The notes under the pieces were generated by a model that saw only the letters and a list, made by a program, of their open reading frames with translations, was not told the DNA's origin and did not search any database. From NCBI RefSeq assembly GCF_014873945.1, contig NZ_JADBEC010000002.1, positions 558,001-622,000 on the forward strand: DNA of 64,000 nucleotides. The letters are read 5' to 3'. The stretch is from Rhizobium viscosum (lineage in GTDB: Bacteria; Pseudomonadota; Alphaproteobacteria; Rhizobiales; Rhizobiaceae). Below, piece after piece: positions 19,184-35,755 of this stretch; the stretch's first letter is position 1; every line of letters starts with the position of its first letter. The position numbers and the translations under genes were made by a program.

Positions 19184-19214
19184 TGTATAGTGAAGATATT
19201 TTCTTTTTAGTCAA
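19184..19214 (-). promoter_or_regulatory. Possible sigma-70 promoter of the permease gene
   Basis: Read leftward, TTGACT (19214-19209) and TATACA (19189-19184) are spaced 19 bp apart within an AT-rich stretch in an otherwise GC-rich region. The spacing is slightly long; ACTATA at 17 bp is an alternative -10. It lies 140 bp upstream of the start codon. Confidence 0.35.
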
Positions 19215-26437: not shown

Positions 26438-27571
26438 TTAGCCGACTGCCGTCCTCTTCTTCTTTTCCGGATCGTCGAAGGGCAGCGTATGCGCGATCGC
26501 GCTGGTCTTCAGGGTCTTGCCGCGCACTTCGAGCTTCGCGCCGTGCGCAGCCTTGTCGACGTCAAGACGGGCGATCGCCATCGACTTCTTCGTCAACGCA
26601 GAATAGCTCGGGCAGGTGATCACGCCGACCTTCTTTCCGTCGGCATAGACTTCGTCGCCAAGATCGGCCGGACCGTCCGCGTCGATCAGCATGCCAAAGA
26701 TCTTGAACCGTTCCTTGCCCTTCAGCCGCGCATGTTCCTCGGCGCCACGGAAGCCGGTCTTGCCGGGGCTGACCGTGAAATCGAGGCCAAGCTCCCACAG
26801 GCTATCGCCGGGCGGCTGGTCGGCAAAGGGATACATCTGCGAGTTGTCGTAGGGATAGAAGAGCAGGTAGCTCTCGACGCGCAGCATGTCGAGCACAGAG
26901 AAGCAGCAGGGGATGATGCCCATATCTGCGCCTTCGGCTACGATACGATCCCAGACCATGACGGCATCCTGGCCACGCACGAAGATCTCGTAGCCGCGCT
27001 CGCCGGTATAGCCGGTGCGCGAGATCATGACAGGCGCACCGAACAGCGTCGTCTGCATGTGATGGAAATATTTGAGGTCGCGGATGCCGGGCACGTATTT
27101 GGCAAGGTAGTCAACCGCGAGCGGGCCTTGCAGCGACAGGTCATGAAGGTCGTCGTCGAAGAGCACGGCGCAATTGCGGCCGGCCGCCTGCTTGACGATC
27201 TCCTCATGGCCGGAGCCTGAGCCGTGCACCAGCATCCAGGAATTCGGGCCGGTGCGGTAGACGATGCAATCGTCGGTGAAGTGACCGCGGTCGTTCAGCA
27301 TGGTCGCGTAGACCGAGCGGCCGGGATAAATCTTCGTCATGTCGCGGGTGGTGATATAGTCGAGCACGGCGATCGCATGCGGGCCGACCAGATGCACCTT
27401 CTTAAGGCCCGAGACATCCATGATGCCGGCCTTTGTGCGGACCGCGACATGCTCGTCAGACATGTTCTTGTCGTAGGTCCAGGCGGTTCCCATGCCGCTC
27501 CAGTCTTCGAGCTTCGATCCGAGAGCGCGATGCCGATCCGCCAAGGCGGAGAAACGCCAAGATAATGCCAT
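26438..27571 (-). CDS. dmmD: GcvT-family folate protein of the dimethylamine monooxygenase operon (DmmD)
   Basis: This 377-residue aminomethyltransferase-like protein has the three-domain GcvT fold: VAVRTKAGIMDVSGLKKVHLVGP, TTRDMTKIYPGRSVYATMLNDRG, SRTGYTGERGYEIFV and SVLDMLRVESYLLFYPYD. It probably transfers the methyl-derived carbon released by the monooxygenase to tetrahydrofolate, avoiding free formaldehyde. That role is inferred from the fold and the operon. It is first in the dmmDABC-tmm unit. A 17-bp dyad shared with the mgs promoter begins 24 bp upstream of its ATG. The symbol follows operon order. Confidence 0.85.
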   Translation of the reverse strand: MALSWRFSALADRHRALGSKLEDWSGMGTAWTYDKNMSDEHVAVRTKAGIMDVSGLKKVHLVGPHAIAVLDYITTRDMTKIYPGRSVYATMLNDRGHFTDDCIVYRTGPNSWMLVHGSGSGHEEIVKQAAGRNCAVLFDDDLHDLSLQGPLAVDYLAKYVPGIRDLKYFHHMQTTLFGAPVMISRTGYTGERGYEIFVRGQDAVMVWDRIVAEGADMGIIPCCFSVLDMLRVESYLLFYPYDNSQMYPFADQPPGDSLWELGLDFTVSPGKTGFRGAEEHARLKGKERFKIFGMLIDADGPADLGDEVYADGKKVGVITCPSYSALTKKSMAIARLDVDKAAHGAKLEVRGKTLKTSAIAHTLPFDDPEKKKRTAVG

Positions 27572-27595
27572 TTCCGTTCCCTCTTATTTCCTCTA

Positions 27596-27612
27596 CGGAA
27601 TATTTATTTCCT
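27596..27612. promoter_or_regulatory. Operator-like dyad upstream of dmmD (shared with mgsA)
   Basis: The plus-strand sequence CGGAATATTTATTTCCT matches AGGAATATTTTTTTCCT at 34013-34029 in 15 of 17 positions, both with the form GGAA-N7-TTCC. It lies 24-40 bp upstream of the dmmD start, where a bound protein could block or assist initiation. Confidence 0.5.
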
Positions 27613-27682
27613 GACTATATTCGTCTTTCACGCTGTGGCAAGCCGATCCAGGTGATTTTTGTCGGCTGTCCCAGCAGCATTT

Positions 27683-28585
27683 TCACTGGAATACCGGCGG
27701 CGTTAGTCCTGCCGAACGATGGGCGGCAATCACCGTATTGGCCATCAGCATGGCGATCGTCATCGGGCCGACGCCGCCTGGAACCGGAGTGATGACGGCA
27801 GCAACCGGAGAAACCTCGGCAAAGGCGACATCGCCGACGAGGCGGGTCTTGCCCTCGCCGCGCTCGGGGGCGGCGATGCGGTTGATGCCGACGTCGATGA
27901 CGGTGGCGCCGGGTTTGACCCAATCGGCTTTGACCATTTCCGGACGGCCGACCGCGGCCACCAGAATATCGGCATTGCGGCAGATGCCGGCGAGGTCCTT
28001 GGTGCGCGAATGGGCGATGGTGACCGTCGCATTGGCATTCAGCAGAAGCTGCGCCATCGGCTTGCCGAACAGGTTGGAGCGGCCGATGACGGTGGCATTG
28101 AGGCCGGACAGATCGTCACCATGGGTGCGACGGACGAAGACCATGGCGCCGGCCGGCGTACAGGAGACGAGGCCGGTCTTCAGGTCGCCGGTCGCAAGCT
28201 TGCCGGCATTGACGACGCTCAGGCCGTCGACATCCTTCTCCGGCAGGATCGACTGGATGATCGCCTCGCTGTCGAGATGTCTGGGCAGCGGCAACTGCAC
28301 GAGAATGCCGTGGATCGACGGATCGGCATTGAGCGCGGCAACGAGGGCGGCAAGCTCCTCCTGGCTCGTCTCGACAGGCAGCGTGTGCTGGACGGACTTG
28401 AAGCCGCATTCCTTGGCCATGCGGCTCTTGGAGCTGACATAGGTGTGGCTCGCCGGATCGTCGCCGACAATGATGACCGCAAGGCCCGTCCGTACGCCCT
28501 TGGCGGCCTCGAGCGCGGCATTTGCCGATTTCACGGTTTCGATTACGGATGCGGCAACCTGCTTGCCGTCGATGACCTCGACCAT
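27683..28585 (-). CDS. folD: Bifunctional methylene-THF dehydrogenase / methenyl-THF cyclohydrolase FolD
   Basis: This 300-residue cytoplasmic enzyme oxidises methylene-tetrahydrofolate to formyl-tetrahydrofolate. Conserved parts include [16 protein letters not shown] with the catalytic Lys, [45 protein letters not shown] and [13 protein letters not shown]. It is the last gene of the mgsABC-gmaS-purU-folD unit, 3 bp after purU. In this setting it processes the methylene units released during N-methyl removal. Rhizobial genomes usually carry another folD for housekeeping, so this may be a dedicated copy. Confidence 0.95.
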
Positions 28586-28588
28586 GGC

Positions 28589-29473
28589 TCAGCCCATGCG
28601 CTCGGAAGCGTAGCTGCCCGGGCTTGCCGGGAACACGACGGTGCGGTTGCCGTTGATGAAGGTACGATGGTGGATATGGGCGTGGATGGCGCGCGCCAGC
28701 ACCTGGCTTTCGACATCGCGGCCGATCGAAACGTAGTCGTCCGGGCTCTGCGCATGGGTGATGCGGGCCGTGTCCTGCTCGATGATCGGGCCTTCATCAA
28801 GATCGGCCGTCACGTAGTGCGCCGTGGCACCGATCAGCTTCACGCCACGCTGATAGGCCTGCTTGTAGGGATTGGCACCCTTGAAGCTCGGCAGGAAGGA
28901 ATGGTGGATGTTGATGATCCGGCCCGACATTTTCTGGCACATCTCGTCTGACAGAATCTGCATATAGCGGGCCAGCACGATCAGTTCCGTGCCGGTCTGC
29001 TCGGCCACTTCCATGATATGGGCTTCCGCCTGCACCTTGTTGGCCTTGGTGACGGGAATATGGTGGAAGGGAATGTCGTGGTTGACGACGACCTTCTGGT
29101 AATCGAAATGGTTGGAGACGACGCCGACGATATCGATCGGCAGGGCGCCGATCTTCCAGCGATAGAGCAGGTCGTTGAGACAATGGCCGAAGCGCGACAC
29201 CATGAGCAGCACCTTCATGCGCTTCTCGCTGTCGTGGAAATCGTAAGTCATGCCGAAACGTGCGGCGATGCTGTTGAAGCCGGCGCGGATCTCGGCCTCG
29301 GAGATGCCTTCTTCGGAAATGAAGGAGACACGCATGAAGAACTGGCCGGTGTCCAGATCGTCGAATTGCGAGCTGTCGACGATGTTGCAGCCCTGTTCGG
29401 CGAGATAACCCGAAATCGCCGCAACGATGCCGCGCGTCGACTTGCAGGATACCGTCAGTACGTAGCTCTTCAT
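28589..29473 (-). CDS. purU: Formyltetrahydrofolate deformylase PurU
   Basis: This 294-residue enzyme hydrolyses 10-formyl-tetrahydrofolate to formate and free tetrahydrofolate. The N-terminal ACT domain (VLTVSCKSTRGIVAAISGYLAEQGCNI) precedes the formyltransferase-like catalytic domain (VLLMVSRFGHCLNDLLYRWK, NIHHSFLPSFKGANPY, GATAHYVTADLDEGPIIEQD). The start at 29473 follows GGAAGAGATGGC. Paired with folD, it recycles tetrahydrofolate when methyl groups are burned, with formate as the exit product. A formate dehydrogenase must lie elsewhere. Confidence 0.95.
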   Translation of the reverse strand: MKSYVLTVSCKSTRGIVAAISGYLAEQGCNIVDSSQFDDLDTGQFFMRVSFISEEGISEAEIRAGFNSIAARFGMTYDFHDSEKRMKVLLMVSRFGHCLNDLLYRWKIGALPIDIVGVVSNHFDYQKVVVNHDIPFHHIPVTKANKVQAEAHIMEVAEQTGTELIVLARYMQILSDEMCQKMSGRIINIHHSFLPSFKGANPYKQAYQRGVKLIGATAHYVTADLDEGPIIEQDTARITHAQSPDDYVSIGRDVESQVLARAIHAHIHHRTFINGNRTVVFPASPGSYASERMG

Positions 29474-29575
29474 GCCATCTCTTCCTTCGTCTTTTGAAGC
29501 ATAGGCCACCAGCCGGGCCGGTGCGTCGATGCTCCGGCCCGTAGGCGCGTGATGTCAGAACCTCAACCGGTAGGC

Positions 29576-30883
29576 TCAGATATCGAGCGTACTGTCGCGT
29601 TCCCACTGCGTGAAATGCGAACAGTAGGCATTCCACTCCTGGTGTTTGAGCTTGAGATAGGCGGCGGAGAATTCCGAACCGATTGCAGCCTTCAACGTCT
29701 CGTCTGCATCGTAGGCGCGCAGGGCATCGAGCAGGTTCAGCGGCAGACGCGGCGCATTCTTCACGAGATGGCCCTCCGCATACATATCGATATCGTGGTG
29801 CGGGCCAGGATCGGCCCTGTCGTCGAGGCCGTCGAGGCCGGCCGCGATGATGATAGCCTGCAGCAGGTAGGGGTTGACCGCACCATCTGGCAGGCGCAGC
29901 TCGAAACGGCCTGGGCCCGGGACGCGCACCATGTGGGTGCGGTTGTTGCCGGTCCACGTCACCGTATTCGGCGACCATGTGGCGCCAGAGGTCGTGCGCG
30001 GCGCATTGATGCGCTTGTAGGAATTGACGGTCGGGTTGGTGATCGCGGCAAGCGCCGAAGCGTGTTTCATAATGCCGCCGAGGAAGTGCCTACCTTCCGC
30101 AGACAGACCGAATTCGGCCGTCTTGTCGGCGAAGACGTTGACCCTGCCGTCATTGTCCCAGACGGAGATATGGCAATGGCAGCCATTGCCGGTCAGACCT
30201 TTGAAGGGCTTCGGCATGAAGGTGGCACGAAGCCCGTGCTTCTCGGCAATGGACTTGACCATGAACTTGAAGAAGGAATGCTTGTCGGCCGTCTTCAGCG
30301 CATCGTCGAATTCCCAGTTCATCTCGAACTGGCCGTTGGCATCCTCGTGGTCGTTCTGGTAGGCGCCCCAGCCGAGCTCCAGCATGTAGTCGCAAATCTC
30401 GGCGATGACGTCGTAACGGCGCATGACGGCCTGCTGGTCGTAGCAGGGCTTTTCAGCCGTGTCGCGGCCATCGGAAATCTGTTCGCCGTCGGCGGTGATC
30501 AGGAAGAATTCGGCCTCGACACCGGTCTTGACCCGCTTGCCTGCCGCTTCGGCTTTACCGACAAGCTTCTTCAGCACATTGCGCGGCGCCTGCGCCACGA
30601 GCCTGCCTTCCATCATGCAATCTGCGGCGACCCAGGCGACGTCCTTCTTCCAGGGAAGCTGGATGACGGAGGTGGCATCGGGAACGGCGAAGAGATCAGG
30701 ATGGGCGGGCGTCATGTCGAGCCAAGTGGCGAAACCGGCAAAACCCGCGCCCTCCTCCTGCATGCCGGCAATCGCCTGCGCCGGCACCAGCTTGGCACGC
30801 TGGCCGGAGAAGAGATCAGTATAGCTGATCATGAAATATTTGATGCCTTTGTCTTTCGCAAAAGCAGCAAGGTCCAGTGTCAT
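29576..30883 (-). CDS. gmaS: Gamma-glutamylmethylamide synthetase GmaS
   Basis: This 435-residue glutamine-synthetase-fold ligase joins glutamate and methylamine with ATP to give gamma-glutamylmethylamide. It carries the GS signatures GVEAEFFLI, NDHEDANGQFEMNW, NGCHCHISVWD, INAPRTTSGATWSPNTVTWTGNNRTHMVRVPGPGRFELRLPDG. It is of the GlnT/type III-like group found in methylamine utilisers and shorter than housekeeping GlnA. Its position directly after mgsC and before purU separates it from true glutamine synthetases, with which it shares the fold and partly the motifs. The exact substrate preference needs biochemical proof. Confidence 0.92.
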   Translation of the reverse strand: MTLDLAAFAKDKGIKYFMISYTDLFSGQRAKLVPAQAIAGMQEEGAGFAGFATWLDMTPAHPDLFAVPDATSVIQLPWKKDVAWVAADCMMEGRLVAQAPRNVLKKLVGKAEAAGKRVKTGVEAEFFLITADGEQISDGRDTAEKPCYDQQAVMRRYDVIAEICDYMLELGWGAYQNDHEDANGQFEMNWEFDDALKTADKHSFFKFMVKSIAEKHGLRATFMPKPFKGLTGNGCHCHISVWDNDGRVNVFADKTAEFGLSAEGRHFLGGIMKHASALAAITNPTVNSYKRINAPRTTSGATWSPNTVTWTGNNRTHMVRVPGPGRFELRLPDGAVNPYLLQAIIIAAGLDGLDDRADPGPHHDIDMYAEGHLVKNAPRLPLNLLDALRAYDADETLKAAIGSEFSAAYLKLKHQEWNAYCSHFTQWERDSTLDI

Positions 30884-30963
30884 TCTCGTTCCCCTTTGGA
30901 TTTCTCAGAGACACTTTGGTTATGGATGCGAAGCGGCCGGACGTTTTGCCCGGCCGGTAGAAA

Positions 30964-32292
30964 TCAGTAGCCTCCCTTGCCCGGTATCCAGCTCGTTCCC
31001 GCGAGCGGTACCTGCGCCATTGCGGAAGCCTCGATCGTCAATGCGCAGAGGTCTTCCGGTTCCAGATTATGGACGTGATTCTTGCCACAGGCACGCGCAA
31101 TCGTCTGCGCTTCCAGTGCCATGACCTTGAGGTAGTTGGCGAGGCGACGACCGGCGGCGACCGGATCGACGCGCTTCATCAGTTCCGGATTCTGCGTGGT
31201 GATGCCGGCCGGATCCTTGCCTTCGTGCCAGTCATCATAGGCTGCTGCCGTCGTGTGCAGCGCCTCATATTCGGCCGCCCAGCGCGGATCGTTCTCACCG
31301 ATGGCGATGAGGGCGGCCGTGCCGATGGAGACGGCATCGGCACCAAGCGCCAGGGCCTTCGCAACGTCGGCTCCGTTCCTGATGCCGCCGGAAACGATGA
31401 GCTGCACCTTGCGGTGCATGCCGAGATCCTGCAGCGCCTGCACCGCCGGGCGGATACAGGCGAGCGTCGGCATGCCGACATGCTCGATGAAGACTTCCTG
31501 TGTCGCCGCAGTACCGCCTTGCATGCCATCGAGCACGACGACATCAGCGCCGGCCTTCACGGCAAGGGCCGTATCGTAATAGGGACGCGCACCGCCGACC
31601 TTCACATAGATCGGTTTTTCCCAGTTGGTGATCTCGCGCAGTTCGAGGATCTTGATCTCAAGGTCGTCAGGGCCGGTCCAGTCGGGATGACGGCTTGCCG
31701 AACGCTGGTCGATACCCTTCGGCAGGGTGCGCATCTCGGCGACGCGGTCGGAAATCTTCTGGCCGAGCAGCATGCCACCGCCACCGGGCTTGGCGCCTTG
31801 GCCAACCACGATCTCGATCGCGTCGCAGCGGCGCAGGTCCCGCGGGTTCATGCCGTAGCGCGACGGCAGATACTGGTAGACGAGCGTCTGCGAATGACCG
31901 CGCTCCTCCTCGGTCATGCCACCATCACCTGTTGTCGTCGAGGTGCCGGCGATCGTTGCACCACGGCCGAGCGCTTCCTTGGCCGGACCGGAGAGCGAAC
32001 CGAAGCTCATGCCGGCAATCGTGATCGGGATCTTGAGCTCGATCGGCTTTTTAGCATATCGCGAACCGAGCACGACGTTTGTACCGCATTTCTCGCGGTA
32101 ACCTTCGAGCGGATAGCGCGAGATCGAGGCTCCGAGGAACAGGAGATCGTCGAAATGCGGCAGCTTGCGCTTGGCGCCGCCGCCGCGGATATCATAGATG
32201 CCGGTCGCCGCGGCGCGGCGAATTTCCGACATCGTGTATTCGTCGAAGGTTGCCGAAAGGCGAGGCTTTGTGGGCGGGTTGTGATAGCTCAT
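30964..32292 (-). CDS. mgsC: N-methylglutamate synthase subunit C (FMN-binding GltS-like)
   Basis: This 442-residue FMN enzyme of the glutamate synthase large-subunit core fold transfers methylamine from gamma-glutamylmethylamide to 2-oxoglutarate, giving N-methylglutamate. Visible parts include FDDLLFLGASISRYPLEGYREKCGTN, PITIAGMSFGSLSGPAKEAL, the IVVGQGAKPGGGGMLLG loop, KVGGARPYYDTALAVKAGADVVVLDGMQGGT and VSGGIRNGADVAKALALGADAVSIGTAAL. The classical glutamate synthase CxxxxxCxxxxC iron-sulfur pattern is not seen. It follows mgsB by 18 bp. Confidence 0.92.
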   Translation of the reverse strand: MSYHNPPTKPRLSATFDEYTMSEIRRAAATGIYDIRGGGAKRKLPHFDDLLFLGASISRYPLEGYREKCGTNVVLGSRYAKKPIELKIPITIAGMSFGSLSGPAKEALGRGATIAGTSTTTGDGGMTEEERGHSQTLVYQYLPSRYGMNPRDLRRCDAIEIVVGQGAKPGGGGMLLGQKISDRVAEMRTLPKGIDQRSASRHPDWTGPDDLEIKILELREITNWEKPIYVKVGGARPYYDTALAVKAGADVVVLDGMQGGTAATQEVFIEHVGMPTLACIRPAVQALQDLGMHRKVQLIVSGGIRNGADVAKALALGADAVSIGTAALIAIGENDPRWAAEYEALHTTAAAYDDWHEGKDPAGITTQNPELMKRVDPVAAGRRLANYLKVMALEAQTIARACGKNHVHNLEPEDLCALTIEASAMAQVPLAGTSWIPGKGGY

Positions 32293-32310
32293 GGAAAACC
32301 TCGATAAGAT

Positions 32311-32997
32311 TCAATAGGCTTCGGCATTGTCGACGTTGAAATTGTAGAGTTTGCGAGATGAGCCGTAGCGGCTGAACTCCTCCGGTCGCACATCGCTGAT
32401 GCCGGCCTTTGCAAGCAGTGCGGCGAGAAGCTCGATATGTTCGCTCCGCATTTCCTTTTCGATGCAGTCCGCGCCAAGGCTCTCGACCTTGCCGCGCACG
32501 AAGATGCGGGCCTCGTAGAGGGAATCGCCGAGCGCCTCGCCCGCATCGCCGAGTACGACAAGGTTGCCGGCCTGCGCCATGAAGGCGGACATGTGGCCGA
32601 TATTGCCGCGCACGACGATGTCGATGCCCTTCATCGAGATGCCACAACGCGAGGAGGCATTGCCCTCGATGACGAGCAATCCGCCACACCCGGTGGCGCC
32701 GGCATACTGGCTGGCATCACCCTTGATGGTGATACGCCCGGACATCATGTTTTCCGCGACACCGGGGCCGGCCGAGCCGTGCACGGTGATGACGGCTTCC
32801 TCGTTCATGCCGCCGCAATAGTAGCCGACACTGCCGTGGATATCGATGCTGACGGGCGCATGCACGCCTGATGCGACGGCATGATGGCCACGCGGATTGA
32901 CGACATCGAACTGCAGGTCGTTGTCGCCCGGCGCAATGTCATGCAGGGCCTGGTTGAGGTCACGAAGCGGGGTCACCGCAAGATCGAATGTGGGCAT
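32311..32997 (-). CDS. mgsB: N-methylglutamate synthase subunit B (GXGXG domain)
   Basis: This 228-residue protein corresponds to the right-handed beta-helix domain of glutamate synthase (FwdC/GltB domain 3 type), with repeating glycine motifs such as HGSAGPGVAENMMSGRI, GCGGLLVIEGNASSRCG, KGIDIVVRGNIGHMS and AGNLVVLGDAGEALGDS. It forms the structural subunit between the amidotransferase (MgsA) and the FMN subunit (MgsC). The start at 32997 (MPTFDLAV) is taken because the long upstream extension overlaps mgsA out of frame with no similarity. Confidence 0.92.
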   Translation of the reverse strand: MPTFDLAVTPLRDLNQALHDIAPGDNDLQFDVVNPRGHHAVASGVHAPVSIDIHGSVGYYCGGMNEEAVITVHGSAGPGVAENMMSGRITIKGDASQYAGATGCGGLLVIEGNASSRCGISMKGIDIVVRGNIGHMSAFMAQAGNLVVLGDAGEALGDSLYEARIFVRGKVESLGADCIEKEMRSEHIELLAALLAKAGISDVRPEEFSRYGSSRKLYNFNVDNAEAY

Positions 32998-33052
32998 GAA
33001 ATCGTCCTGAAATGAAATCGAGCCGATGGGGTGAGGGCAGCCGCAGCAGCCC

Positions 33053-33949
33053 TCAGCGTTCCCAGAAATAGACAGTCGCAGGCTCCGGCTCCCAGACGCG
33101 CGCGGCCTCGATGCCGGGCAGGTTGACGAGCGCGCGGTATTCCGAGCCGAATGCAACGTAACGGTCGGTCTCAGCCATGACGGCAGGCTTGCAAGCGATC
33201 GCATCGCGCACGACGCCGAAGCCGGACTTGGTGCCGACGACAAAGGTGAAGAAACCATCGAGATCGTCGACGGCACCTTCCAGCGCCTCGCCGAGATTCT
33301 TGCCCTTGGCCATTTCAGCGGTCAGGTAGGCGGCGGCAACCTCGGTGTCGTTCTCGGTCTCGAAGGTCATGCCTTCGCGCTTCAGTTCACGGCGAAGGTT
33401 GTTGTGGTTGGAGAGCGAGCCGTTATGGACGAGGCACTGGTCGGAGCCGGTGGAGAAAGGATGGGCGCCGAGCGTGGTAACAGCCGATTCCGTCGCCATG
33501 CGGGTATGGCCGATGCCATGTGTTCCGGCCATGGAATTGACGGCGAAACGCGAAACGACGTCCTTCGGCAGGCCGGTCTCCTTGTAGATCTCGATCGCGT
33601 CGCCGCTGCTCATGATACGGATGTCGGGGCGCAATTCGGCGATAGCGGCACGGCCCTCTTCGAGCATGCCCTTCGGCAGAGTGACAACGGCATGGGTGCT
33701 CTTGATGTCGATTGAGACGTCCGTGCCGAGTTCCTTCATGAGCTCCGCCTCAAGACCGGAGAAATCCTTCTTCGGCTTGGCGGACTGCACGGTGATCTTT
33801 GCGCTATTGCCGCTGCTTGCGCCGTAGATCGCAATACCTGCGCTATCAGGCCCGCGGTCCGTCATCGTCACCAGCATGGACGACAGCATCGCGCCGAGCT
33901 CCGGTTCCAGGCTTTTATCCTTCAGGAAGAGACCCACAATTCCGCACAT
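33053..33949 (-). CDS. mgsA: N-methylglutamate synthase subunit A (class II glutamine amidotransferase)
   Basis: This 298-residue Ntn-type amidotransferase releases methylamine from gamma-glutamylmethylamide for transfer within MgsABC. The nucleophilic Cys2 follows the initiator (MCGIVGLFL), which fixes the start at 33949, with GAGGTTCTGTC ahead. Further family parts are MTDRGPDSAGIAIYG, GIGHTRMATESAVTTLGAHPF, LVHNGSLSNHNNLRRELK and NDTEVAAAYL. It leads the mgsABC-gmaS-purU-folD unit. Its upstream region has several AGG/CCT dyads, including one shared with dmmD. Confidence 0.93.
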   Translation of the reverse strand: MCGIVGLFLKDKSLEPELGAMLSSMLVTMTDRGPDSAGIAIYGASSGNSAKITVQSAKPKKDFSGLEAELMKELGTDVSIDIKSTHAVVTLPKGMLEEGRAAIAELRPDIRIMSSGDAIEIYKETGLPKDVVSRFAVNSMAGTHGIGHTRMATESAVTTLGAHPFSTGSDQCLVHNGSLSNHNNLRRELKREGMTFETENDTEVAAAYLTAEMAKGKNLGEALEGAVDDLDGFFTFVVGTKSGFGVVRDAIACKPAVMAETDRYVAFGSEYRALVNLPGIEAARVWEPEPATVYFWER

Positions 33950-33997
33950 GACAGAACCTCCATTTCGCGTCTGCAAAATGACTATCAGGTCTATTTT

Positions 33998-34035
33998 AGG
34001 TTTTCAACCTGTAGGAATATTTTTTTCCTTTAAGG
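33998..34035. promoter_or_regulatory. Cluster of dyads between mgsA and the XRE regulator
   Basis: Three symmetric elements lie in 38 bp: AGGTT-TTC-AACCT (33998-34010), AGGAA-N7-TTCCT (34013-34029, shared with dmmD) and CCTT-T-AAGG (34027-34035). They lie 49-86 bp upstream of the mgsA ATG and just after the XRE gene stop, in a locally AT-rich stretch. They are the best operator candidates for the XRE-cupin regulator. Confidence 0.5.
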
Positions 34036-34039
34036 CAAG

Positions 34040-34723
34040 TTAGTCATTCTTGCCGCGCTGCGGATAGCTGATGATGGAGAGATAGCGGCTCGGCAATTTC
34101 ACAAGCTTTTCCGGCCCGTGCGGGGCATCGGCGTCGAAGAACAGGCTGTCGCCCGGCTGCATCGGGAAAAGCTGATCGCCATGGCGATAGACGACCTCTC
34201 CGTCCAGCATATAGATCAGCTCCATGCCTTCATGCTGGAAGGTCGGAAAGACATCCGAATCCGTCGTCAGCGTGATGAGATAGGGTTCGACGATGACGCC
34301 ACTGCTATTGTTGTCGATATGGCCGAGCAAATTGTATTGATGGCCAGCGCGTGTGCCGCGCCGCTCAAGCTCGATGCCTTGGCCGGCCTTGACGAAAACG
34401 GCGTTGCGCGGTTCCTCGTAGCGGCGGAAGAAGGCCGTCAACGGCACGCCGAGGGCGCGCGACAGCGACTGCAAGGTCGTCAGCGACGGTGAAATATTGC
34501 CGTTCTCGATCTTCGACAGCATGCCGAGAGAAATGCCGGTCGCAGCGGCGAGATCGGTGACGGTGATGCCGAGCTTCTTGCGATAGGCGCGCACCTCATG
34601 GCCGATCGCCATTTCGAGATTGTTTTCCTTCGGCTCGCGCACCGCATGCGGATTCTGGGACAGGGCCTGGCGAATCGCATGGGCATGCTCCTGGCTCGAC
34701 GTTTCATCCAGCTTGGTCTTCAT
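34040..34723 (-). CDS. XRE-family regulator with C-terminal cupin domain
   Basis: A 227-residue transcription factor. Residues 45-100 form a lambda-type helix-turn-helix (LGITVTDLAAATGISLGMLSKIENGNISPSLTTLQSLSRALGVPL), and residues 130-225 form a cupin_2 sensor (EGMELIYMLDGEVVYRHGDQLFPMQPGDSLFFDADAPHGP) with metal-binding-type His and Glu residues. The start at 34723 (MKTKLDETS) matches family length; the longer frame has no ribosome-binding site. It lies upstream of mgsA on the same strand and probably controls the methylated-amine genes, with a small-molecule or metal effector bound in the cupin. Confidence 0.88.
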   Translation of the reverse strand: MKTKLDETSSQEHAHAIRQALSQNPHAVREPKENNLEMAIGHEVRAYRKKLGITVTDLAAATGISLGMLSKIENGNISPSLTTLQSLSRALGVPLTAFFRRYEEPRNAVFVKAGQGIELERRGTRAGHQYNLLGHIDNNSSGVIVEPYLITLTTDSDVFPTFQHEGMELIYMLDGEVVYRHGDQLFPMQPGDSLFFDADAPHGPEKLVKLPSRYLSIISYPQRGKND

Positions 34724-34795: not shown

Positions 34796-35755
34796 TCAGA
34801 GCTTGCGGACTGAACTCGGGCTGGTGCCGTAGAAGCCGCGAAAGAGGCGTGAAAAATGCGCGGCTCCGGAAAAACCTGTCGCAATGGCGATCTCGGAAAT
34901 CGACAGCGGGCTCTGCTCGATGAGCCTTCGGGCATGCTGCAGCCTGATGCGTCTGTATTGCTCGAGGAAGGTCATGCCGAGATGGGCAGTGAACAGACGG
35001 TCGAGATGACGCGGCGTCACCCCGGCAATGCGGGCCATGGCTGTGCGGTTAAGCGGCATCTCGATGGTTTCCTCCATCTTTTCCAGGACGCTCAGCAGAC
35101 CCGGATGATGCACGCCGTAGCGTTCGGCAAGGGAGGCGCGCTGGGGCGCCGCTGGCTCGCCGACCTCGGTGTGCAGGAACCAGTCGCTGACCCGGCGGGC
35201 GAAATCCGGCCCCATGCGCTCGGCGATCAGCGCATGCATCATGTCGAGCGGCGCAATGCCGCCCCCGCAGGTAATGCGGTTGCCGTCGACGACGAAACGC
35301 GCCTGGCGCGGCGACAGGTCGGGAAAGGCTTCGAGGAGCGCCGGCGCATGCTCCCAATGGATCGTAAAGTCACGGCCTGTCAGCAGCCCAGCCTCGGCCA
35401 GAAGATAGGGACCGCCCGAAATGCCGCCGATGCGCACACCCTCGCGTGCGAGTTGGCGCAAGCAGGAGAGTACGGTCGGATAGTGCCAGTCGCGCGGCGA
35501 ACCGCCGGCGCAGACGAAGACAGTGCCGAGCCCGAAACCGCGACCGGGAAGTGGCGCCGCCGGAACAGGCACGCCGCCAGAAGACAACACCGCTCCGCCT
35601 TGCGGCGAGAAGCATGAGATGTGGTAGATTTCCCGCCCGGCAAGCAGATTGGCCGCGCGCAGCGGTTCGCTCGCCGAGGCATAGGACATCAGGGCAAATC
35701 CCGGCAGAAGAATGAAGCCGATGGAATGAAGGTTTTTTGCTTCTATGGACCTCAT
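34796..35755 (-). CDS. GlxA-family transcriptional regulator (DJ-1/PfpI + AraC)
   Basis: This 319-residue activator has an N-terminal DJ-1/PfpI-like domain (IGFILLPGFALMSYASASEPLRAANLLAG, GGISGGPYLLAEAGLLTGRDFTIHWEHAPALLEAFP) and a C-terminal AraC double helix-turn-helix (VTPRHLDRLFTAHLGMTFLEQYRRIRLQHARRLIEQSPLSISEIAIATGFSGAAHFSRLFRGFYG). Regulators of this class control betaine, carnitine and methylamine-type catabolism in Proteobacteria. It is divergent from mgdABCD with 88 bp between starts, so direct control of mgd is likely. A 6-bp repeat spaced 21 bp lies in that region. Confidence 0.88.
   Translation of the reverse strand: MRSIEAKNLHSIGFILLPGFALMSYASASEPLRAANLLAGREIYHISCFSPQGGAVLSSGGVPVPAAPLPGRGFGLGTVFVCAGGSPRDWHYPTVLSCLRQLAREGVRIGGISGGPYLLAEAGLLTGRDFTIHWEHAPALLEAFPDLSPRQARFVVDGNRITCGGGIAPLDMMHALIAERMGPDFARRVSDWFLHTEVGEPAAPQRASLAERYGVHHPGLLSVLEKMEETIEMPLNRTAMARIAGVTPRHLDRLFTAHLGMTFLEQYRRIRLQHARRLIEQSPLSISEIAIATGFSGAAHFSRLFRGFYGTSPSSVRKL

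Follow-up and report, generated by a model that had tools for sequence, protein, structure and literature searches.

A predicted operator shared by the dmmD and mgsA promoters of Rhizobium viscosum and its probable reader, an XRE-cupin protein

The methylamine genes considered here lie in a stretch of 64,000 nucleotides (nt) of the Rhizobium viscosum contig NZ_JADBEC010000002.1 (positions 558,001 to 622,000; hereafter the window, in whose coordinates all positions are given), and two of their promoters share a short dyad that is probably read by an XRE-cupin protein encoded next to one of them. Leftward, on the reverse strand, the gene order is the XRE-cupin gene (34040–34723, with the start codon assumed at 34723), the unit mgsABC-gmaS-purU-folD and then dmmDABC-tmm. 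The first gene of the former, mgsA, encodes a glxB-type glutamine amidotransferase (33053–33949, reverse strand), and that of the latter, dmmD, a GcvT-like protein (26438–27571, reverse strand). A gene for a GlxA/AraC-type regulator (34796–35755, reverse strand) lies upstream of the XRE-cupin gene, 12 nt from its longest open reading frame (ORF), and is divergent from mgd; judged by family and position it is likely the orthologue of TmaR, its family and its place adjoining mgd matching the description from Ruegeria pomeroyi (PMC13390433). Gene names throughout rest on homology, for mgsA and dmmD also on context, and regulatory targets were judged from sequence; gmaS and tmm match the NCBIfam models TIGR03105 and NF058570, each above cut-off, and dmmA matches both DmmA-like Pfam domains.

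The two 17-mers, CGGAATATTTATTTCCT (27596–27612) at dmmD and AGGAATATTTTTTTCCT (34013–34029) at mgsA, mismatch solely at positions 1 and 11, bearing out the initial annotation, which had described them as agreeing in 15 of 17 positions, both with the form GGAA-N7-TTCC, in two promoters 6.4 kb apart. Their dyad symmetry is imperfect, with complementary pairs at six of eight positions at mgsA and four of eight at dmmD (by inspection). A combined 17-mer with up to three mismatches allowed matches the window twice, and 100 dinucleotide shuffles average 0.02 matches, none reaching two. In the 7.07-Mb genome of the organism itself, the exact 15-mer GGAATATTTWTTTCC has three copies, at dmmD, at mgsA and at one further place; when up to two mismatches are allowed, 13 places are found, namely these three and ten with two mismatches, eight of the ten inside mechanically called ORFs, while a backwards control pattern finds 3.

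A scan of related clusters had been named beforehand as the test on which the shared-regulator proposal could fall, and the dyad is conserved in the orthologous dmmD and mgsA clusters, so the proposal survives it. Of the dmmD promoters of the close type (protein identity of at least 85% to that of the window), 19 are non-redundant at 80% of 130 nt, and every one of them carries the dyad; a symmetric matrix was built solely from these 19 sites, the window's own dmmD site among them. In the window this matrix ranks the two dyads at the top, with scores of 26.7 and 25.2, followed by a site of 12.8. Applied to mgsA, it recognizes 69 of 76 non-redundant upstream regions above the 95% level of dinucleotide shuffles, where 3.8 are expected (median 19.9 vs -3.8; upstream regions shorter than 80 nt were omitted, and 34 remoter dmmD promoters were scored separately). 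Of the seven mgsA promoters below the threshold, four retain TGAAA-N5-TTTCA or something close to it, and another has TGAAAAATTGTTTCA. Control upstream regions exceed their own shuffle level in 3 of 46 cases for gmaS, 3/39 for dmmA, 0/35 for mgsC, 1/36 for mgdA, 1/41 for TmaR, 2/36 for the XRE gene and 2/35 for tmm. In 1.63 Mb of DNA, made up of the window and, from one scan and with redundancy kept, the surroundings of XRE-cupin homologues at 80 loci, 66 places score at least 15; within 400 nt upstream of a gene start, 53 of them stand before mgsA, eight before dmmD and two before the XRE gene, and three lie elsewhere. The exact 15-mer occurs in 8 of 297 genomes of the family, its own included, and a reversed control pattern in none; the seven matches outside its own genome comprise five before dmmD, one before an mgsA adjoining an XRE-cupin gene and one elsewhere. 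Short motifs present in two copies are often due to chance, and the likeness could in principle reflect nothing but A/T-rich promoter DNA; this explanation is refuted by the conservation and retains practically no probability, given also the shuffles, the recognition of mgsA promoters by a matrix made from dmmD, the placement of the strong sites in the 1.63 Mb and the dependence of the score on the XRE gene (below).

At both promoters a third half-site lies 5 nt past the dyad, on the side facing away from the promoter core. At dmmD the sequence GGAA-N7-TTCC-N5-GGAA occupies 27588–27611 on the reverse strand, with the third half-site at 27588–27591, and RGAA or GKAA stands at exactly +21 in 14 of 19 promoters, other offsets from 17 to 32 giving at most four. 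At mgsA the corresponding GGAA-N7-TTCC-N5-GGCA occupies 34014–34037 on the forward strand, mirrored relative to the gene, with an imperfect third half-site at 34034–34037; counted with a looser pattern than at dmmD (TTCC, TGCC, TTCT, TTTC or TCTC), the third half-site stands at exactly -8 in 41 of 70 promoters, against no more than five at each of the other offsets between -30 and -1. The 70 are those of the 76 mgsA promoters that score at least 8 and have enough flank to be aligned. Because the third half-site keeps conserved, mirrored offsets, the predicted operator is a 24-bp unit, larger than first noted, set in mirrored orientation at the two promoters.

The operators differ in their relation to the promoter core. 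In the window the dmmD promoter reads TTGCCA-N16-TATAGT (27614–27641, reverse strand), and the gap between its -10 box and the 17-mer is one base in 18 of the 19 orthologous promoters, the window included, so the 17-mer covers the expected transcription start. At mgsA a scan of the window finds no consensus sigma-70 match; a putative promoter, proposed from conserved spacing and below the scan's consensus limit, is TTGAAA (34007–34002)-N17-TAGTCA (33984–33979) with a TG before the -10 box (33979–34007, reverse strand). In the alignment of 70 promoters, TTGA or TTGC follows the TTC of the dyad at 7 nt in 56 and at 6 nt in 10, and a TGnTA is conserved further downstream. The mgsA dyad thus stands just upstream of the -35 box, its centre at about -50 by count. 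UP elements lie upstream of the -35 box, as does this A/T-rich core, and the mgsA element might be a mere UP element whose likeness to dmmD is coincidental. We consider this very improbable, as the GAA and TTC letters are the most conserved part of the element (1.9–2.0 bits), the dmmD copy lies downstream of the -10 box, and the element is absent from 11 of the 12 mgsA promoters of genomes without the XRE-cupin gene.

The distribution of the XRE-cupin gene parallels that of the operons and of the dyad. Among 337 genomes of the class, mgsA is found in 44 and the XRE-cupin gene in 45, both in 32, mgsA only in 12 and the XRE gene only in 13 (Fisher p = 1.4e-24, uncorrected for kinship). In the 297 family genomes, the XRE-cupin protein (E <= 1e-40) occurs in 99 and dmmD (E <= 1e-140) in 51, all within the 99; the gene is thus present in 51/51 dmmD-bearing genomes vs 48/246 of the remaining ones. 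In 50 of the 76 non-redundant cases, mgsA begins no more than 260 nt downstream of an XRE gene. The matrix score in the 200 nt before mgsA has a median of 14.7 in genomes with the XRE gene (n = 31) vs -8.25 in those without it (n = 12; p = 1e-5), and it exceeds 9 in 25 of 31 vs 1 of 12; 43 of the 44 mgsA genomes were scored, the match in the omitted one (G360) starting at base 11 of its contig. The genomes are related, so the p-values overstate independence. Within-family contrasts number only four, and in each of these four families every genome with the XRE gene outscores the one without it (f58, 16.7 and 15.3 vs -5.2; f69, 2.2 vs -15.3; f88, 15.1 vs -8.5; f115, 11.8 and 15.1 vs -13.6). Conservation and co-occurrence thereby support the initial proposal that dmmDABC-tmm and mgsABC-gmaS-purU-folD answer to one regulator, most simply the XRE-cupin protein.

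A conceivable rival reader of the dyad is TmaR, the GlxA/AraC-type regulator that in R. pomeroyi binds the promoters of tmm, tdm, dmm, gmaS-mgs, mgd and tmaR itself (PMC13390433) and whose likely orthologue adjoins the XRE gene in the window. If it were a TmaR operator, the dyad should stand before mgd and tmaR and be found where a genome has TmaR, but it is absent from the other TmaR-bound promoters, including tmaR's own, the most tightly bound in PMC13390433 (1/41 for TmaR and 1/36 for mgdA, as above). A TmaR-like protein of at least 45% identity is present in 9 of the 44 mgsA genomes. Two genomes with such a protein (49–52% identity) and no XRE gene lack the dyad (G371 and G582), whereas three with the XRE gene and no TmaR-like hit at 1e-40 carry the site (G542, 12.0; G410, 11.8; G453, 14.7). 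In 15 further XRE loci the region before mgsA reads GAA-N7-TTC in 14 and GCA-N7-TTC in L145; 13 score above 13, and the other two (L153 and L174, with TGAAA-N5-TTTCA) score 6.5. Eleven of these loci belong to genomes in which no TmaR-like protein exceeds 36% identity, and nine of the eleven score above 13, the other two 6.5. Across these genomes the dyad follows the XRE-cupin gene and, as a predicted operator, needs no GlxA/TmaR-type regulator, which leaves TmaR an improbable reader. The initial annotation had seen no clear copy of the dyad at the tdm or mgd promoters, as the matrix scan confirms for the window, and had suggested that these may answer to the GlxA-type regulator. The suggestion agrees with the work on TmaR; the division of labour is nonetheless not exclusive, because TmaR also binds the dmm and gmaS-mgs promoters (PMC13390433).

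The pairing of gene and site extends to plasmids, for which 246 records matched and 12 were fetched, all 12 being scanned whole. Six of them hold sites of at least 19.6 (L276, L277, L279, L281, L282 and L283) and three, from two Paraburkholderia and a Methylobacterium, sites of 13.8–15.8 (L280, L285 and L286). On plasmids of Pseudosulfitobacter, Thioclava and Aminobacter, a site of 19.6–21.4 lies between the XRE gene and mgsA. Three Acinetobacter plasmids, related to each other (L279, L282 and L283), carry a gmaS-mgs operon with an XRE-cupin gene whose protein is 42–43% identical, and a site of 20.8–23.6 lies between glnT/gmaS and the divergent XRE gene, a score that 0, 0 and 3 of 300 shuffles reach. 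On the same plasmids the ammonium transporter gene amt is preceded by a weaker site, which 13, 6 and 8 of 300 shuffles reach.

The protein itself belongs to the XRE-cupin family, matching PF01381 (HTH_3, a helix-turn-helix (HTH) domain) and PF07883 (Cupin_2) above cut-off, and the palindrome adjoins the regulator's own gene, the dyad lying between the XRE gene and mgsA in the window. Both domains are mostly confident in the AlphaFold model (mean predicted local distance difference test score 78.9; predicted template modelling score 0.53). Profile and fold searches both place the XRE-cupin structure 1y9q first among solved relatives; two-domain matches in the fold search reach TM-scores of 0.3–0.5, confirming the domains and giving no pointer to a ligand. 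HppE, an HTH-cupin Fe(II) enzyme that binds iron via a His-x3-Glu...His triad, ranks right after 1y9q in the fold search, and in the cupin domain H164, E168 and H202 do not vary among the 19 proteins aligned; because of these two observations, a metal-assisted ligand site is possible in this sensor. Homologues of 73–82% identity also stand, at seven loci (L144, L148, L149, L150, L154, L161 and L186), directly upstream of a gene for an NdvB-like protein of 2830–2862 amino acids, whose GH94 domains were checked in L148; four of these loci have a thiamine pyrophosphate-enzyme-like gene on the opposite side (Pfam checked in L144).

We propose, with a probability of roughly 0.8, that the XRE-cupin protein encoded at 34040–34723 is the reader of the dyad. 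In most genomes carrying both its gene and mgsABC-gmaS, it would regulate this monomethylamine (N-methylglutamate) operon locally, and in Rhizobium-type clusters it would additionally control dmmDABC-tmm. A dimer would sit on GGAA-N7-TTCC, whose half-sites are about one helical turn apart, and a further subunit probably on the third half-site. At dmmD the dyad lies directly behind the -10 box, on the start site, and steric repression of this near-consensus promoter is therefore to be expected, ending when the cupin domain binds a ligand and the protein is released; we infer that methylamine itself, or one of its products (for example gamma-glutamylmethylamide or N-methylglutamate), is the most plausible ligand. 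At mgsA the operator, at about -50, would cover the place for a UP element or for an activator such as TmaR; repression is the simplest expectation, with either sign compatible with the position of the dyad.

Several observations weigh against this reading. Six of the 31 mgsA genomes with the XRE gene stay below 9 in the mgsA upstream region, three of these with negative scores (G324, G522 and G423), two that have the XRE gene and no TmaR hit score only 2.2 and 3.8 (G363 and G478), and one without the XRE gene scores 11.7 (G326). Among the 34 non-redundant remoter dmmD promoters, many of them from Mesorhizobium, only three exceed the shuffle level (1.7 expected), and the control regions before purU (3/15, 0.8 expected) and tdm (3/10, 0.5 expected) lie slightly above background. 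No comparable site was found by the XRE gene on the plasmids of Paracoccus aminovorans, a Streptomyces and Aquabacterium olei (L275, L278 and L284), and the third exact genomic copy of the 15-mer has no evident link to methylamines. The seven loci with the NdvB-like gene hold no site of at least 9 in their 20 kb; the protein family is therefore wider than this regulon, and these homologues perhaps have a paralogous role unrelated to methylamines. Finally, at mgsA the fixed distance of 6–7 nt to the -35 box, together with the poor -10 box, suits an activator no less well than a repressor.

This last point bears on a possible, if less likely, alternative in which the XRE-cupin protein is a dual regulator, a repressor at dmmD and an activator at mgsA, like lambda CI at PR and PRM. 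The spacing of 6–7 nt between the dyad and TTGA or TTGC in 66 of 70 mgsA promoters, the conserved TGnTA downstream, the lack of a consensus promoter at mgsA in the window as against the good one at dmmD, and the mirrored orientation of the operators would all suit it. Activators, however, do not as a rule bind with their centre near -50, a special ligand effect would be required for opposite signs at two operons serving one substrate, and in the accessible part of PMC7901475 the Pseudomonas XRE-cupin family is termed one of repressors. More speculatively still, one mirrored 24-bp operator of three half-sites might let the XRE-cupin protein turn dmmD off and turn mgsA on, or shield a UP element at mgsA, the protein and its site having been paired with the N-methylglutamate pathway since before the split of alpha- and gammaproteobacteria and dmmD having been recruited later in the Rhizobium lineage; we regard this scenario as doubtful.

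Further sequence features were seen around these promoters. The third exact copy of the 15-mer, GGAATATTTATTTCC, lies between the genes of a 1-Cys peroxiredoxin and a creatininase-family protein (L001:1501-1515, G000:C1:211424-211438), and before the creatininase gene of six relatives it is not conserved, with a best score of 10.1 in one and negative scores in five. In the remoter dmmD promoters L079-L082 and L084-L087, an element resembling TTGCCT..(A)AAT(G)AAATT.TTTGC replaces the dyad (by eye). Another dyad, AGTGAA-N6-TTC, stands before tdm (window 19189–19205, L096 and L119) and in 8 of the twelve best tmm upstream regions shown, and is perhaps the site of another regulator. An inverted repeat, whose sequence varies by species, lies over the mgsA ribosome-binding site (window 33951–33989; mgsA upstream regions L028-L187). 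The folding of the 50 nt before mgsA is stronger than that of shuffles at the 50 loci where mgsA directly follows the XRE gene (median z -1.17), unlike at the 26 others (median z 0.49; p = 2e-6, uncorrected for kinship). The repeat may keep read-through transcripts from being translated.

Control by nitrogen may be superimposed on that of these operons by the XRE-cupin protein. The glxBCD/glnT genes of Sinorhizobium meliloti are among the nitrogen-responsive genes in the available passages of PMC2848241 and PMC3596328; a link to sigma-54 or NtrC was weighed by eye only. In soil and sea, methylated amines supply nitrogen, and a second, so far unnamed regulator with a defined predicted operator, occurring also in genomes where no TmaR is detected, would provide a directly testable second layer of control over their use. 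Monomethylamine operons in Proteobacteria could likewise be recognized by the dyad as a sequence marker.

Among characterized proteins, the best NCBIfam match is PuuR of E. coli (NF007408), also an XRE-cupin protein; at 64.7 bits vs a cut-off of 211, the protein described here is not PuuR itself. PuuR controls the operon of a gamma-glutamyl-amine ligase (puuA) from a different operator, and in parallel gmaS here makes gamma-glutamylmethylamide. In Rhodobacteraceae, an XRE-family gene has been marked as co-located with tmm, tdm, dmm, gmas and mgs, which in the passages seen of PMC7574528 is co-occurrence only, with no operator or function. In the open literature, where subscription papers are mostly not included, no paper listed was seen from its title, abstract start or passages to give this XRE-cupin protein an operator; a word search of PMC12565409, which deals with XRE palindromes, returned no GGAA or TTCC at the start of a word, and neither "XRE" nor "cupin" occurs in the main text of PMC13390433. 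According to the available part of PMC7901475, XRE-cupin proteins of Pseudomonas are local repressors that bind as dimers to palindromic sites by their own genes. The likeness to ErfA, PauR, PsdR and others, drawn from that description, extends to the XRE HTH and cupin domains, the gene placed by its target, the palindrome and the metabolic operon; unlike these proteins, none of which is linked there to methylamine genes, the present one would use one operator unit with a third half-site at two operons (PMC7901475). TmaR of R. pomeroyi, of the AraC type, is the named master regulator of the pathway, activating tdm, dmm, gmaS-mgs and mgd and binding their promoters, with its effector left unidentified in the 2026 Ruegeria study (PMC13390433). 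The XRE-cupin protein would regulate the same pathway alongside a likely TmaR orthologue at 34796–35755, but it belongs to another protein family, and the distribution of the dyad does not track that of TmaR.

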